30,268 nt of DNA from a virus: IMG/VR virus record IMGVR_UViG_3300000233_000019, positions 1-30,268 of that record. One strand, given 5' to 3'. Under the pieces are notes generated by a model. It ran no database searches and was not told the DNA's origin. It was given only the letters and a program-made list of their open reading frames with translations. This document shows, piece after piece, positions 7,584-29,282 of this stretch (positions within the stretch are counted from its first letter, which is position 1; each line of letters starts with the position of its first letter). Made by a program: the position numbers and the translations under genes.

Positions 7584-8657
7584 TTAAAAAGAGTTTATAA
7601 TTATTGGTTCAAAATTGTTGTAATCATCCAAAGAAGATATATCTATGTAATTTATTAATTTGGCTTCAGACCATCTTTCGGTTACATCTTTCCACCCACA
7701 GTATATGTCTCCTATTTCTGGAGTTGAATTAGAATTACCGTATCCTTTTTGTATTAATTGAAAAGTGCTAAAAACAGGAGTGCTTGTTGTTGGAACTTCC
7801 GAAGTGTTTATGAACTCTAAAAAACCACTAACAGCGGAATATTTTACTTTAATAAGTTCTTTAGGTTTTAAAATATAATCTAACTCATTGTTGAACCAAA
7901 ATAAAATTCTTGCAGGAAATCCAGTATTGTGTTTAATTGTAATATTTGAAATACCGTTATTTTTAAAAGTAAATTCTCTTCCATCATATAAATTTGTACT
8001 TGAATTTATTAACCCATAAAACGTTAATAATGCATCCCCAAAGCGGTAAGATGCTTTAGTATCAATTTTAACATATCCATTGTATGGGTCAATATTCCAA
8101 ACGATTTCTCCTTTTTCAATTTTACTTCTGAAAGCATCTCCTGTTATTGGTGGTGTTGGGTCGCCTACAGATGAATCTGTTACGTTTATTTCAGTTACCA
8201 AAATCGTGTCAGTTGGAATATTTGGTCTTACTGCAATTCCTGCTGTTTCTATGCCTGAAATTCTTATTATTTGGCTTAATGTATTTGCAACTAATATGTC
8301 GGTTCTTGTCAATTCAGTTTCAGCATAAGGAATATTAATTACAGTATCGGATGTAGTATTGTAATTTACTCCATTTATAAGCCATTGTGCGTTTAATGGA
8401 ATAGTTAAGTTATTAGCAACAAGTGTAATTTCTCCTATTGAAATTATTTGATTAGTAGTGTTGTCTAATATTACATCAATAATTTTTTGAATTGATAAAG
8501 ATTCTGAAATGCCATTATTTGAAACATGAATTTTTGAAAACGAATTCAATAATTCCTGAACAGGTAACTCATCAATTTTCTTTGCATTAGTTGATATAGC
8601 ATTCAATGTTGCTGTTATTGCTGCTAATCTTTCTGTTACAAATGTTTGAAAACTCAT
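7584..8657 (-). CDS. tail fibre or baseplate-type structural protein
   Basis: A 357-residue protein, first gene of the fibre/lysis operon, starting ~20 nt downstream of the promoter box at 8677-8684. The N-terminal ~60 residues are helical (FVTERLAAITATLNAIST and following), a common trimer-forming attachment region. The remainder is beta-rich with many Thr, Ile and Asn residues (for example ISIGEITLVANNLTIPLNAQ and WLINGVNYNTTSDT) and looks like a fibre stem with a folded tip. No enzymatic motif is visible. It is followed 1 nt later by the larger fibre gene, so the two probably form one host-recognition assembly. The specific family is not recognised. Confidence 0.6.
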   Translation of the reverse strand: MSFQTFVTERLAAITATLNAISTNAKKIDELPVQELLNSFSKIHVSNNGISESLSIQKIIDVILDNTTNQIISIGEITLVANNLTIPLNAQWLINGVNYNTTSDTVINIPYAETELTRTDILVANTLSQIIRISGIETAGIAVRPNIPTDTILVTEINVTDSSVGDPTPPITGDAFRSKIEKGEIVWNIDPYNGYVKIDTKASYRFGDALLTFYGLINSSTNLYDGREFTFKNNGISNITIKHNTGFPARILFWFNNELDYILKPKELIKVKYSAVSGFLEFINTSEVPTTSTPVFSTFQLIQKGYGNSNSTPEIGDIYCGWKDVTERWSEAKLINYIDISSLDDYNNFEPIIINSF

Positions 8658-8676: not shown

Positions 8677-8720
8677 CAAATGTAATAAATATTTTTCACT
8701 ATTTAGAATTATTCTAAATA
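8677..8720 (-). promoter_or_regulatory. fibre/lysis operon promoter with 21-bp palindrome
   Basis: Minus strand: palindrome TATTTAGAAT-A-ATTCTAAATA (8720-8700), 15-nt spacer, then TACATTTG (8684-8677), a perfect TAnnTTTG box. There is no TTG at -33; the palindrome covers that place. The predicted RNA start near 8672 leaves ~15 nt before the ATG at 8657. A second copy with the same geometry lies at 22593-22636. Confidence 0.75.
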
Positions 8721-8753: not shown

Positions 8754-8761
8754 TAATTTTG
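8754..8761 (+). promoter_or_regulatory. possible promoter box of the His-rich gene
   Basis: TAATTTTG fits TAnnTTTG and ends 4 nt before the ATG at 8766, so the transcript would be leaderless or nearly so. There is no TTG at the proper upstream distance, so this is weak. Confidence 0.35.
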
Positions 8762-8765
8762 CTTC

Positions 8766-8987
8766 ATGGACTTTTTTATAGTGTTATTTCTAATTCTCGT
8801 TATTGCTGGTTGGCAACTTGGAAAAGTTGTTGGAGGCTCTATTTTTGGAAGAAAAAAAGATAGTTATACTTTTATAGATAAGTCCGTGCATCATCATCAT
8901 CACACCCACGAGCATAAAAATATTTCAATAATTGATGATGCTATAAAACAGAAAATTTTTGAATTGAAAGAGAGTAAAGAAAAATAA
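8766..8987 (+). CDS. small His-rich membrane protein, probable moron
   Basis: A 73-residue protein and the only rightward gene within the long leftward late region. Residues 1-19 form a hydrophobic helix (FFIVLFLILVIAGWQLG), then GGSIFGRKKD. A His cluster follows at ~41-49 (VHHHHHTHEHK), then a charged amphipathic helix (ISIIDDAIKQKIFELKES). It probably sits in the inner membrane with a cytoplasmic tail that could bind Zn, Ni or Cu. It has its own short upstream region and a shared terminator at 8989-9014, the hallmarks of a moron: a single self-contained gene inserted between late operons and expressed in the lysogen. No family is recognised, and a coding role is supported mainly by composition and context. 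Confidence 0.65.
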   Translation: MDFFIVLFLILVIAGWQLGKVVGGSIFGRKKDSYTFIDKSVHHHHHTHEHKNISIIDDAIKQKIFELKESKEK

Positions 8988-21889: not shown

Positions 21890-22558
21890 TTAAACGATTC
21901 CATCAACAATAGAATCAATCATTTTATCATCTGGTTTGTTGCCAGTTGTTCCACTTGGTGTTGGACCAGAATAGCGTGTAGTTTCTGCTACTGCTTGACG
22001 TATGTCTGTGAATTCAGTTTCAAGATTTTTAACTTGATCCTCAATAGGCGTTTCAGAGTTTACATCGATTCTGTTTAACCAATTAGTTCTAATCTCTGGC
22101 TTTAATCCTTTTAAAATTTCAGAAGCATCGAAAACAGACTGTGCAGTTTGCTTTTTAGTTTCAATAATTTTTCCAGTTTTAATTGCCTCAATGTCTGCGG
22201 TTAGTTTTTGATTTGTTTCAATCAAAGTTTTAGCCCATGCTGGAGTGTCATCTGCTGGAGTTACTACTGGAGTAACAGGTGCAGGAGTTGGCTCTGGATT
22301 AGGTGTTGGAGCGGGTGCAGGAGTTGGATTAGCTTTTGCCTCTAATGTTCTTACTCTATCGTCCTCACGGGCGATTTCTTCAAAAGAATTAAAGTCATTT
22401 GCTTGATTCAAAACTACATCTACTGCTGCATCATCTGCATCGTCAGCAGGCATTGGAGCAAGTTTAGCCGCAATTGCGTCTATCCTTTTTTGAGATAAGT
22501 TAGCCTTTGGGAACAATACCTTAAGTCTAGCCTTAATGATTTCTGGTTTAACTGCCAT
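21890..22558 (-). CDS. scaffold-like head assembly protein with Pro-rich linker
   Basis: A 222-residue protein, first gene of the head/tail operon. The N-terminus is helical and basic (KPEIIKARLKVLFPKANLSQ), then acidic (APMPADDADDAAVDVVLN). Residues ~77-103 form a repetitive Pro/Ala/Thr linker (PTPAPAPTPNPEPTPAPVTP and more). A coiled-coil C-terminal part (KTLIETNQKLTADIEAIKTG; EDQVKNLETEFTDIRQAV) and a short hydrophobic end (DSIVDGIV) follow. This make-up and the place before the decoration and capsid genes fit an internal scaffold. No protease motif is present. The start at 22558 is ~30 nt downstream of the predicted RNA start. Confidence 0.65.
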   Translation of the reverse strand: MAVKPEIIKARLKVLFPKANLSQKRIDAIAAKLAPMPADDADDAAVDVVLNQANDFNSFEEIAREDDRVRTLEAKANPTPAPAPTPNPEPTPAPVTPVVTPADDTPAWAKTLIETNQKLTADIEAIKTGKIIETKKQTAQSVFDASEILKGLKPEIRTNWLNRIDVNSETPIEDQVKNLETEFTDIRQAVAETTRYSGPTPSGTTGNKPDDKMIDSIVDGIV

Positions 22559-22592: not shown

Positions 22593-22636
22593 CAAATGTA
22601 ATAAAAAATATTTCTTATTTATAATCATTCTAAATA
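22593..22636 (-). promoter_or_regulatory. head/tail operon promoter with 21-bp palindrome
   Basis: Minus strand: TATTTAGAAT-G-ATTATAAATA (22636-22616), 15-nt spacer, then TACATTTG (22600-22593). It has the same spacing as 8677-8720, the palindrome is identical at 19 of 21 bases and the -7 box at all 8, although their downstream operons differ. It gives a leader of ~30 nt before the scaffold gene ATG at 22558. Confidence 0.75.
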
Positions 22637-24742: not shown

Positions 24743-26218
24743 TTAATAGTTGATTCCTAATTCTTGTAATGATTCTTGAGTTACATGTGTTTCTGGTTTT
24801 GTGTTGTATGACATGTGTCCGTAGCGAGACGAATCCCAAAAGTGATTGAAAGAATCTATCGGCTGATTGATAGCAATTCCGTTTATCTCTTTCAGTCGGT
24901 AATTTTCTTTTTCTTTTTTAATTTGATGATACAGATGATTTTTTACAACGTGTATTTTTTTATTCTTCATTGAAAGCAACCAAAACATTACACTCCTTGT
25001 TTTACTTACTTTTGAAGCATTCCATAAGCCTTTCTTCAATGCTTTAACCATTTCTACAGTTCCTTTGTTTTCACCAGTATATTTGTCAGAACTATCACAA
25101 ATCAATAAATCGCCATCACGTGAATATTTATCACTATTTGGTTTAAGTCCGTGTGCTATTAGAACTTCTATTAGTTCTTCAGCCGTTTCGATAGGTTCAT
25201 AGCATAGTGGCTCAATCCATATATTATTTTCATCCTCTGCATATTTATTTAAAGCATTTGGATCTGTTGTAAATCCGAAGTCATTAGTAAAGATGTAAGC
25301 AATATCTTCAGGGAATTTGTCTATCCATTCAATATGATTGAAAATAACCCCTTTCATTGCTCCACGCAATCCAAGACCGTAAACTTTCCACATAAATAAA
25401 TCGGCTGTACCATTATCTATGTTTGTTGGATGTGGCTTTGGAACATTTGATTTGCTTATTGGCTCTACCTTTTTTGTTTCTTTATTATAGCAGCATATCT
25501 CATCATCTTTTACTATGTAAGAACCAGGAAGAAAAGGTTCATACGAAAGGATTTTATTTTTTTCTTGAATAGAAACAAACTTATTGTCAAGGTATGTTGT
25601 ACGCAAAAATCCAACATCTGGTCTTGATAATACTTTATCAAAGAACCAGTGCTCCGTTACTGATGGATTGTAGTCAGCCCACCAGAATTTTCTACAACGC
25701 ATTTCTGATTGATCAAAAACTGAATTTTGAATAAACATCATTTCGTTGTAGAAAGCATAATCACACCCGCCTCCGTGTTTACCGTCTCCAAGAAAGTAAA
25801 TCGTACTTTTGTTTATTCTGAAACTCTTAACTTCCTTCGCATTGTGAAATGGATTTGGCAAACCATAATCATCAAGTCGTCGCTTAAAGTCATCGTAAAG
25901 AGTGGTTTTAAATTCGTTGTAGGTTTCACGATAAATATTGATGGTGCAACTTTCTTCAACATAAAGACAAAGCCACATTATTATATCTATTCCACTCCAT
26001 GTTTTACCAGAACGTGAAGAACCTTCCAAAGCACAACCTCTGTAACCACCAATCAGTTCTCCGAGTTCGTTATACTTTTGTGATTTGATTGCTTCTTGAA
26101 GCAACTTGTAGTTTGGATTTGTTTCCTCACCGATATTTATCAATCGCTTACGAGAATTATCAATATCTCTTTCTTTCAAAAGAGTTTCAAGTTCTAATAT
26201 TTCAGCATCAGTTAGCAA
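24743..26218 (-). CDS. terL: terminase large subunit
   Basis: A 491-residue DNA-packaging motor. The ATPase half carries Walker A (GSSRSGKT, 66-73) and a Walker B-like DYAFYNEM (153-160, Glu159), here Asn-Glu in place of the usual Asp-Glu. The nuclease half of RNase H fold has Asp313 in YIFTNDFGFTTDP, Asp375 in LLICDSSDKY and Asp462 in HFWDSSRYGH. These three acidic sites match the typical metal ligands. It starts within the last bases of the preceding small gene (7-nt overlap), and the portal follows directly. The overall length and order are typical of phage TerL. Confidence 0.95.
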   Translation of the reverse strand: MLTDAEILELETLLKERDIDNSRKRLINIGEETNPNYKLLQEAIKSQKYNELGELIGGYRGCALEGSSRSGKTWSGIDIIMWLCLYVEESCTINIYRETYNEFKTTLYDDFKRRLDDYGLPNPFHNAKEVKSFRINKSTIYFLGDGKHGGGCDYAFYNEMMFIQNSVFDQSEMRCRKFWWADYNPSVTEHWFFDKVLSRPDVGFLRTTYLDNKFVSIQEKNKILSYEPFLPGSYIVKDDEICCYNKETKKVEPISKSNVPKPHPTNIDNGTADLFMWKVYGLGLRGAMKGVIFNHIEWIDKFPEDIAYIFTNDFGFTTDPNALNKYAEDENNIWIEPLCYEPIETAEELIEVLIAHGLKPNSDKYSRDGDLLICDSSDKYTGENKGTVEMVKALKKGLWNASKVSKTRSVMFWLLSMKNKKIHVVKNHLYHQIKKEKENYRLKEINGIAINQPIDSFNHFWDSSRYGHMSYNTKPETHVTQESLQELGINY

Positions 26219-26430
26219 TTGATAATTGTTTCTAATTCTCCAGAAGTAACTATTTTATTGAATTCTTCAATAATTATATTCTGCTGCACTTTTGGAAGTT
26301 TACATTTCTTTCTTTTGATTTGATTATATTGAGATACTACATACTTTTTTCTTTGTATCTCGTGATATAATTGATTGGCTTTTGCTTTTTTCTTATCCAA
26401 TCGTTTGTTTATCCAATTTCTTAACCACAT
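26212..26430 (-). CDS. small basic protein, unknown
   Basis: A 72-residue, very lysine-rich helical protein (WINKRLDKKKAKANQLYHEI; RKKCKLPKVQQNIIIEEFNK). It overlaps the terL start by 7 nt and so is translationally linked. The strong positive charge suggests contact with DNA or RNA, perhaps with the terminase, but no family is recognised. Confidence 0.55.
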   Translation of the reverse strand: MWLRNWINKRLDKKKAKANQLYHEIQRKKYVVSQYNQIKRKKCKLPKVQQNIIIEEFNKIVTSGELETIINC

Positions 26431-26434
26431 AATT

Positions 26435-26626
26435 TTAATAGATTATTTTGTCTTTTGACAATTCAAATGAATAGTGTTTTGAGTATTCTGTACCTGAAAT
26501 TAGCTCATACATAACACAATATTTATCAATTATGATATTGATAATCATTCTCGGTTTTTGCTCAATATCATGCTTTAGAAAAACTATATCTTCTATATTG
26601 AAATCATTATCAATCTTCATTTTCAT
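26435..26626 (-). CDS. small hypothetical protein
   Basis: A 63-residue protein with strands IVFLKHDIEQKPRMIINIII, KYCVMYELISGTEYSKHYS and a closing FELSKDKI. It resembles short conserved phage proteins of Bacteroidota with a beta barrel-like pattern, but the function is unknown. Its start overlaps the previous gene by 17 nt, and the next gene begins 4 nt later. Confidence 0.55.
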   Translation of the reverse strand: MKMKIDNDFNIEDIVFLKHDIEQKPRMIINIIIDKYCVMYELISGTEYSKHYSFELSKDKIIY

Positions 26627-26795
26627 AAATACATTTACCTACACTTTCAACGAAAACATCTTGTTCTTTTAGTGTAATTGCTATTCCATCATTTTCAATA
26701 GTTTCTGCATAGTCTAATAATGCGTATCCAATTAACTCTGGGTTAGTTGTATGCTTACCGTCTATAAAAATTGCTCCGTTGTTAATTGAAATCAT
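26610..26795 (-). CDS. small hypothetical protein, acidic
   Basis: A 61-residue acidic protein (starting MISINNGAIFIDGKHTTNPE, with LIGYALLDYAETIENDGI). It is the first protein gene after tRNA-Tyr, ~16 nt beyond its 3' end. No family is recognised; it may be of mixed alpha/beta fold. Confidence 0.5.
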   Translation of the reverse strand: MISINNGAIFIDGKHTTNPELIGYALLDYAETIENDGIAITLKEQDVFVESVGKCIYENED

Positions 26796-26811
26796 ATTAT
26801 AAAATTGTTAG

Positions 26812-26894
26812 TGGGAGTAGAAGGAATCGAACCTACAAAGCCAAAGGCGACAGTTTTACAGACTGCTGATTTAACCACATTTACCATTACTCCC
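26812..26894 (-). tRNA. phage-encoded tRNA-Tyr (anticodon GUA)
   Basis: Minus strand. Acceptor GGGAGTA (26894-26888) pairs with TACTCCC (26819-26813), discriminator A at 26812. The anticodon loop CTGTAAA has GTA at 26859-26857, with a GCAGT/ACTGT stem. The variable arm GCC-TTT-GGC is long, as expected for tRNA-Tyr. The T arm is GTAGG-TTCGATT-CCTTC with one T-T mismatch, and the D stem is short (about 3 pairs). CCA is not encoded. It lies between the TerS-like gene and the three small genes before terL, just after its own promoter, so it is the first product of that operon. Confidence 0.85.
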
Positions 26895-26906: not shown

Positions 26907-26949
26907 CAAAAATAACATAAATTACAATTAACTTGCAAAATATGTTATT
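26907..26949 (-). promoter_or_regulatory. tRNA-Tyr / terminase-portal operon promoter with AACATATTTTGCAA box
   Basis: Minus strand: box AACATATTTTGCAA (26946-26933), containing TTG at 26938-26936, then a 21-nt spacer and TATTTTTG (26914-26907). A predicted RNA start near 26902 gives ~8 nt before the tRNA. An inverted repeat AATAACAT (26911-26918) / ATGTTATT (26942-26949) flanks the whole region and is a candidate operator. The same box and spacer occur upstream of the ParB-methyltransferase gene. Confidence 0.7.
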
Positions 26950-26966: not shown

Positions 26967-27434
26967 TCAATCTTCTTTCATAGCTTTTGCTATCAATTGA
27001 GCAATACGAGCTTCTCTTTCTTCCGAATTTGTTATAACCAAAGGGTTTTCTTTGTCGCCTTGAATTATATGTTTTTTAGCAGGATATAATGCTTCCAATT
27101 TTGATATTTCTTTTTTGATAGAATTTACAACCGACATTCCTTGAGGAGTTCCTTTGTAACTATCTTTCATTGACCTAATATCCTGCTTCAATTCTGCAAT
27201 TCTTAATGCTCTTTTTTGCTCAACTGTAGCTTCCTCACTCTCTTGCCAAACACTATATGCCTTTTGCAATAAGTTTTTAGCTTGACGAAATCCTAAAAAC
27301 TCTCCAGCACCGTTTTTAAATTGTGTTTGAATGTTTTTTAAAATCAAATAATCAGGCACACCATTGATTATCCACCCTTGAATGGTGAACACTCTTTTTT
27401 CTGTTTCTAATTTAGTTGATCTAACACCTGACAT
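26967..27434 (-). CDS. terminase small subunit-like protein
   Basis: A 155-residue protein. Residues ~10-60 form a helix-turn-helix-like part (EKRVFTIQGWIINGVPDYLI and the following FRQAKNLLQKAYSVWQES). A coiled coil (~70-115, EQKRALRIAELKQDIRSMKD) and a polar C-terminus (NPLVITNSEEREARIAQLIA) follow. This three-part plan is that of TerS, which recognises the packaging site and oligomerises. It lies ~750 nt upstream of terL, separated by the tRNA operon, so the two subunits are not directly adjacent. No terminator lies between this gene and the next promoter. The sequence-based TerS assignment is moderate. Confidence 0.65.
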   Translation of the reverse strand: MSGVRSTKLETEKRVFTIQGWIINGVPDYLILKNIQTQFKNGAGEFLGFRQAKNLLQKAYSVWQESEEATVEQKRALRIAELKQDIRSMKDSYKGTPQGMSVVNSIKKEISKLEALYPAKKHIIQGDKENPLVITNSEEREARIAQLIAKAMKED

Positions 27435-29238: not shown

Positions 29239-29278
29239 CAAAAGTAGTAAAATATGTTATTAAGTTGCAAAATATGTT
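29239..29278 (-). promoter_or_regulatory. ParB-methyltransferase operon promoter with AACATATTTTGCAA box
   Basis: Minus strand: AACATATTTTGCAA (29278-29265) containing TTG at 29270-29268, 21-nt spacer, TACTTTTG (29246-29239). A second copy of AACATATTTT lies at 29258-29249, a 20-bp spacing (two helical turns). A predicted RNA start near 29234 gives a leader of ~27 nt to the ATG at 29207. Confidence 0.7.
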
Positions 29279-29282
29279 AAAC

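Follow-up and report, generated by a model that had tools for sequence, protein, structure and literature searches.

A Fur-box-type palindrome in place of the -33 element at two putative late promoters of a flavobacterial phage

Two virion operons of a flavobacterial prophage, one for the head and one for fibre and lysis, are preceded by a matching element in which a palindrome of the flavobacterial Fur-box type occupies the place of the -33 promoter element. We propose that both elements are late promoters with a Fur-type operator, most likely bound here by host Fur together with a small phage module protein, a reading to which we give an even chance. The window, meaning the whole stretch of DNA analysed, is a 30,268-bp fragment of a virus record; it is cut inside a helicase gene, and its integrase adjoins tRNA-Ser. 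Little has been described of how Bacteroidota phages control their late genes, and the design suggests a means of turning such genes on that is as yet undescribed.

Two matching putative promoters and their genes

On the minus strand, the head operon is preceded by the palindrome TATTTAGAATGATTATAAATA (copy 1, 22636-22616) and, 15 nt past it, by the -7 element TACATTTG (22600-22593). The fibre/lysis operon is preceded in the same way by the palindrome TATTTAGAATAATTCTAAATA (copy 2, 8720-8700), a perfect 10-1-10 inverted repeat, followed after 15 nt by a -7 element at 8684-8677. A first-pass annotation had described these stretches (22593-22636 and 8677-8720) as two copies of one layout, and its particulars hold: the palindromes share 19 of 21 positions, the -7 elements are identical, the spacers differ at 6 of 15 positions, and a -33 TTG is missing from both, with no TTG 17-23 nt upstream of TACATTTG. 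Both copies match the TAnnTTTG -7 of the standard Bacteroidota -33/-7 promoter and fail at its -33 TTG. When up to three mismatches are tolerated, the complete layout has two matches in the window and none in any of 100 dinucleotide shuffles, and no further copy of the element was found in the 30,268-bp window with up to four mismatches. A sigma-70 scan gave matches at about chance level. We refer to the two palindromes, from their sequence and the shuffle test, as predicted Fur-box operators of type A.

The genes behind the two promoters encode virion and lysis functions. The head operon opens with a 222-aa gene of PHROG 5824 (21890..22558, minus strand, ATG at 22558), followed by the PHROG 29 major head protein, and the fibre/lysis operon opens with a 357-aa gene (7584..8657, minus strand, ATG at 8657) and extends to an endolysin gene. 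Just before the head promoter, stem prediction places a terminator-like hairpin (22678-22655, minus strand) that would end the upstream terminase/portal transcript and separate it from the head operon; the element is absent upstream of the window's terminase/portal operon. On the far side of copy 2, 33 nt from the palindrome, the -7 element TAATTTTG (8754..8761, plus strand) belongs to a divergent, nearly leaderless promoter, and this distance is 32-34 nt in 18 distinct sequences. Behind it lies the gene for a small membrane protein with a His-rich stretch (8766..8987, plus strand). This arrangement, a His-rich membrane protein with a nearly leaderless start beside the fibre promoter, is kept in 16 of 19 compared phages.

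Recurrence among phages and host genomes

The element is widespread among phages. A relaxed pattern, TTTAGAATNATTNTAAA-N14-20-TANNTTTG, matched at least 118 stretches in IMG/VR, several contigs being matched two or three times; a reversed-palindrome control gave 0 matches and a shifted-spacer control (same palindrome, spacer 26-32) gave 32. The first gene downstream belonged to the head family in 32 matches and to the fibre family in 17 (the window counted in both), was a portal gene in 6, and otherwise fell into several unrelated groups, so that unrelated phages have the element in common. In most of the complete relatives it again stands before the head gene and the fibre gene. Among distinct sequences, the gap between the 21-bp palindrome and TAnnTTTG is 12-15 nt in all 35 head promoters and in 21 of the 22 fibre promoters, and a -33 TTG is present in none of the former and one of the latter. 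The palindrome/spacer/-7 pattern thus recurs in the window and in related phages at the same head and fibre genes with fixed spacing: one box, at a constant distance, before several late operons.

Host chromosomes do not hold the many copies that would have spoken against a phage element. A scan of 300 Flavobacterium genomes met the layout in 4 of them, at 6 places in all (control, 0), and in the hosts of prophages that bear the module the exact palindrome hardly occurs outside those prophages. The earlier proposal of one shared, phage-specific late-promoter element is therefore sustained by the constancy of its two genes and its spacing, by the missing -33 TTG and by its rarity in hosts.

Some phages depart from this pattern. 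No close relatives by capsid alone were found in IMG/VR, and the capsid relative Nekkels_1 has neither palindrome promoters nor the module protein described below in the ~37 of 53 kb examined. Type A promoters occur without the module in Arctus and G016. The Polaribacter phages Freya and Danklef carry several palindrome copies each, and two of the three in Freya lie only a few nucleotides from TATATTTG, a geometry unlike that of the head and fibre promoters. As a separate observation, record G354 (L306-L308) has a different palindrome, of GTAACATAATATGTTAC type, upstream of TATATTTG at contig positions ~24015 and ~26564; it once precedes a methyltransferase-like gene and is perhaps an operator of earlier genes.

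A predicted Fur-box operator and Fur-like phage proteins

The palindrome is similar to Fur-family boxes of the 7-1-7 kind. For Riemerella anatipestifer, a member of the Flavobacteriales, the published Fur box reads ATTTAGAATTATTCTAAAT, and EMSA backs it at several promoters (PMC5609570). Copy 2 departs from this box only at the central base, and copy 1 agrees with it at 17 of 19 positions, one of the two differences again being the central base; apart from these mismatches, both palindromes conform to the inverted repeat ATTTAGAATnATTCTAAAT that defines the flavobacterial Fur box. By sequence, then, the window palindromes are the flavobacterial Fur box, and from the EMSA results, all at Riemerella promoters, we infer that Fur could bind them. 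This identity places the regulator in a known DNA-binding family, and the palindrome also fits the dimeric regulator proposed at first pass. The two systems share the 19-bp palindrome, the host order and promoters of -33/-7 type. They differ in use: in Riemerella the box is an operator of iron genes, found at varied positions and read as a repressor site (PMC5609570), whereas the phage box sits in late promoters at a fixed place, replacing the -33 element.

Host chromosomes carry related sites. With zero or one mismatch, the box lies at TonB-receptor genes, feoB and hemA in some hosts, at distances from the -7 that vary in host genes and are fixed in phages. At feoAB of the genus Flavobacterium there is no good match, a weak point of the host-side argument, and the feoAB promoters were set aside for deriving a host Fur consensus. 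Most Flavobacterium feoAB operons (L265-L294) instead have TTGCAATCTAAATTCAATCTAAAT in common just upstream of feoA, likely a metal-regulator site distinct from the Fur box studied here.

Several relatives encode Fur-like proteins of their own. In Freya and Danklef, the terminase genes adjoin the gene of a 142-aa protein whose annotation places it in the ferric uptake regulator family and whose N-terminal part scores 32 bits against PF01475 (cut-off 23.1). Further Fur-like genes occur in about seven lineages (L188, L191, L197/L220, L177, L184, L370 and L386), the fusions of L188 and L197 scoring 17.6 and 19.0 bits, below the same cut-off. An AlphaFold model of the L197 fusion (pLDDT 81) was compared with the PDB by Foldseek: of the 18 best matches, almost every one is a Fur, Zur, PerR or Mur structure, usually at a probability of 0.84-0.99, and the best of them (Zur, PerR, Fur) reach 0.9-0.99 but with E-values of only 0.16 or weaker. 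On this model, the L197 protein has a predicted Fur-type DNA-binding fold. Alignment with Fur of Flavobacterium hosts shows a common HRKTxER motif and no counterpart of the C-terminal dimerisation and metal-binding domain in the phage proteins; lacking that domain, they are better described as a Fur-derived DNA-binding domain without a sensor than as a Fur. The matches of L029 and L055 are to the generic HTH_11.

In the window's phage family, the C-terminal ~35 residues of the Freya/Danklef protein have their counterpart in a small protein encoded between TerS and TerL. In the window this module protein has 61 aa (26610-26795, minus strand), and the module is present in every fully fetched relative of the family, weakly in G004 (E 0.002). 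Elsewhere the module comes first and a Fur-like winged helix follows it in the same protein (L188, L191, L197/L200/L220 and L370). Module-Fur fusions thus exist in both orders, which suggests that the two parts work together, and we propose the module protein as a putative co-factor of the late switch. The Fur-like protein can also be separate from the module: in L177 and L184 it is encoded directly upstream of the head promoter, and in L386 a 76-aa Fur-like protein lies between portal and head promoter. A PDB search with the module fold gave no credible match.

The window has no detectable Fur-like gene, and a search of 14 type A relatives, mostly ~40-58 kb in size, likewise came up empty, whether with Pfam, with a phage-specific profile or in a profile-profile comparison covering 99 gene families. 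Individual candidates were set aside. The window ORF at 26967-27434 is unrelated to the Fur-like protein and, by position and relatives, is the terminase small subunit. The basic protein before TerL (26212-26430) was considered as a hidden winged helix; its family reached an hhalign probability of ~2%, and this conserved, small protein also coexists with Fur fusions. Beyond the known families, no other Fur-resembling gene family is conserved in type A phages.

Some relatives carry, at the same promoter position, a second operator type in place of type A. A DNA scan for this type B (TTATTTAG-N-CTAAATAA; TTATTTTTATTTAG-W-CTAAATAAAAATAA) yielded 46 stretches, including new phages with Fur-like genes. 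Both promoters of one phage are usually of the same type (p 0.002, hand-classified phages), with the mixed G029 as an exception. The module accompanies either type, those of the window (A) and L182 (B) being 78% identical. Of 61 Flavobacterium genomes, a single one contains the type B core TTATTTAGNCTAAATAA, at a pair of sites separated by 14.8 kb that lie within and beside its prophage region; a host-borne type B regulon was rejected on this ground, and type B, at least, would need a phage protein. A Fur-like gene accompanies 3 of 7 distinct type B head promoters and 1 of 21 of type A (p 0.04; counting those for which 6 kb or more of upstream sequence is available), and is present in 6 of 10 type B lineages and 2 of 24 type A lineages (p 0.003; hand-grouped). 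Given small counts, related lineages and our own grouping, it is suggestive that type B is accompanied more often by an encoded Fur-like protein.

Candidate binders, mechanism and known systems

The geometry of the promoter, with the operator at the -33 place, fixed spacing and no -33 TTG, best fits an activator of class-II-like type, and it is on this geometry that the activator role is built. The operator, centred ~24-26 nt upstream of the -7, would be bound by a Fur-family winged-helix dimer that recruits RNA polymerase, and the head and fibre/lysis operons would be switched on together, presumably from starts set by the -7 elements. Beside copy 2, the divergent spacing is about two helical turns beyond the 13-nt class, so that one bound protein could serve both directions. 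Several relatives would bring their own metal-blind Fur DNA-binding domain, often fused to the module; the window codes for the module alone, which may convert host Fur into a late activator, unless the binder is a phage Fur-like protein encoded beyond the fragment. Host Fur with the module is favoured because the operator is the flavobacterial Fur box, because type A relatives lack a Fur-like family and because module and Fur domain are fused in both orders.

The regulator had initially been taken to be phage-encoded, and for some relatives this part of the claim stands: Freya/Danklef and the other lineages listed above have Fur-like proteins, and type B operators are absent from the 61 host genomes bar one prophage. 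For the window and most relatives with the same operator it finds no such footing, and with no Fur-like gene detectable there host Fur becomes a serious candidate. A phage regulator other than host Fur would have to be a Fur-like protein in the missing part of the prophage or one too divergent to detect, and the blank searches of the 14 type A relatives make this the less likely reading, though it is the main alternative. Fur is best known as a repressor, and stx1 in lambdoid prophages offers a precedent of host Fur controlling a prophage promoter. Host Fur might likewise act as an iron-dependent repressor lock in the lysogen, the strong -7 alone starting transcription once Fur leaves. The box being the host Fur box would suit such a lock, but the constant spacing, seen in 56 of 57 head and fibre promoters, and the missing -33 TTG suit an activator, host boxes lie at varied distances, and phages with sensorless Fur domains would gain nothing from a lock that depends on iron; we consider it improbable. 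The stx1 case shares with ours host Fur on a prophage promoter and differs in that a single cargo gene is repressed there, whereas here two virion operons are probably activated and some phages have Fur-like genes. PMC5552940 is a related paper.

Palindromes near promoters are typical of repressor operators, and many relatives have S24-like genes, so the palindrome could be the operator of the prophage's own CI/S24-type repressor. Good copies, however, stand at late promoters and none at repressor or early genes, and the same sequence is common to unrelated phages, which leaves this reading very little room. Returning to host Fur with the module, we extend the proposal tentatively, and with less than an even chance, to flavobacterial phages at large: through a small phage module protein, host Fur would be the DNA-binding part of their late-gene activator, and some lineages would have captured a sensorless Fur DNA-binding domain, changed the operator and been freed from the host protein.

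Boxes that replace an upstream element and activators linked to terminase genes are known; a Fur-type operator and Fur-derived proteins at virion genes appear to be new. At T4 middle promoters (MotA/AsiA), a phage-specific box replaces the upstream element, and a small winged-helix protein bound to it turns on one class of genes. Our element is similar in the first respect and, as proposed here, in the second, and differs in its Fur-type palindrome, its late genes and the Bacteroidota -33/-7 RNA polymerase; among viral fold matches of the L197 fusion, only the Bp7 MotA homologue is well supported (E 0.26, probability 0.95), a resemblance at the level of fold. Late activators encoded near terminase genes, such as RinA/ArpU and P2 Ogr, are known from many phages. 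They share a small regulator gene at the middle/late border and one regulator for several late operons, and differ in protein family, the candidates here being a Fur-derived winged helix and/or a 35-aa module. The literature searched contained nothing relevant on Fur-type late promoters, phage Fur or Bacteroidota late promoters, and the Freya/Danklef paper makes no mention of a Fur-type operator or of Fur-derived proteins used for virion genes. The element offers a sequence signature for late operons across unrelated Bacteroidota phages together with a named regulator family, and raises the question of whether virion production is tied to the iron status of the host. In phage Fur domains that lack a metal site, a metabolic sensor would be seen turned into a pure phage switch with two operator types.

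Other features of the window were seen in passing. A second upstream element, TAACATATTTTGCAAnTTAA, is common to 26907-26947 and 29239-29279, both on the minus strand, where it stands before TATTTTTG (26914, upstream of tRNA-Tyr and terminase genes) and TACTTTTG (29246, upstream of a methyltransferase gene), a possible pair of middle-gene promoters. A HicA-like toxin gene (2090-2326) and a weak HicB/HTH antitoxin-like gene (1671-2060) adjoin the integrase. The phage-borne tRNA-Tyr gene (26811-26894) is flanked by the genes for the terminase small subunit and the module protein, and phage Arctus_1 has a tRNA-Trp shortly upstream of its terminase genes.
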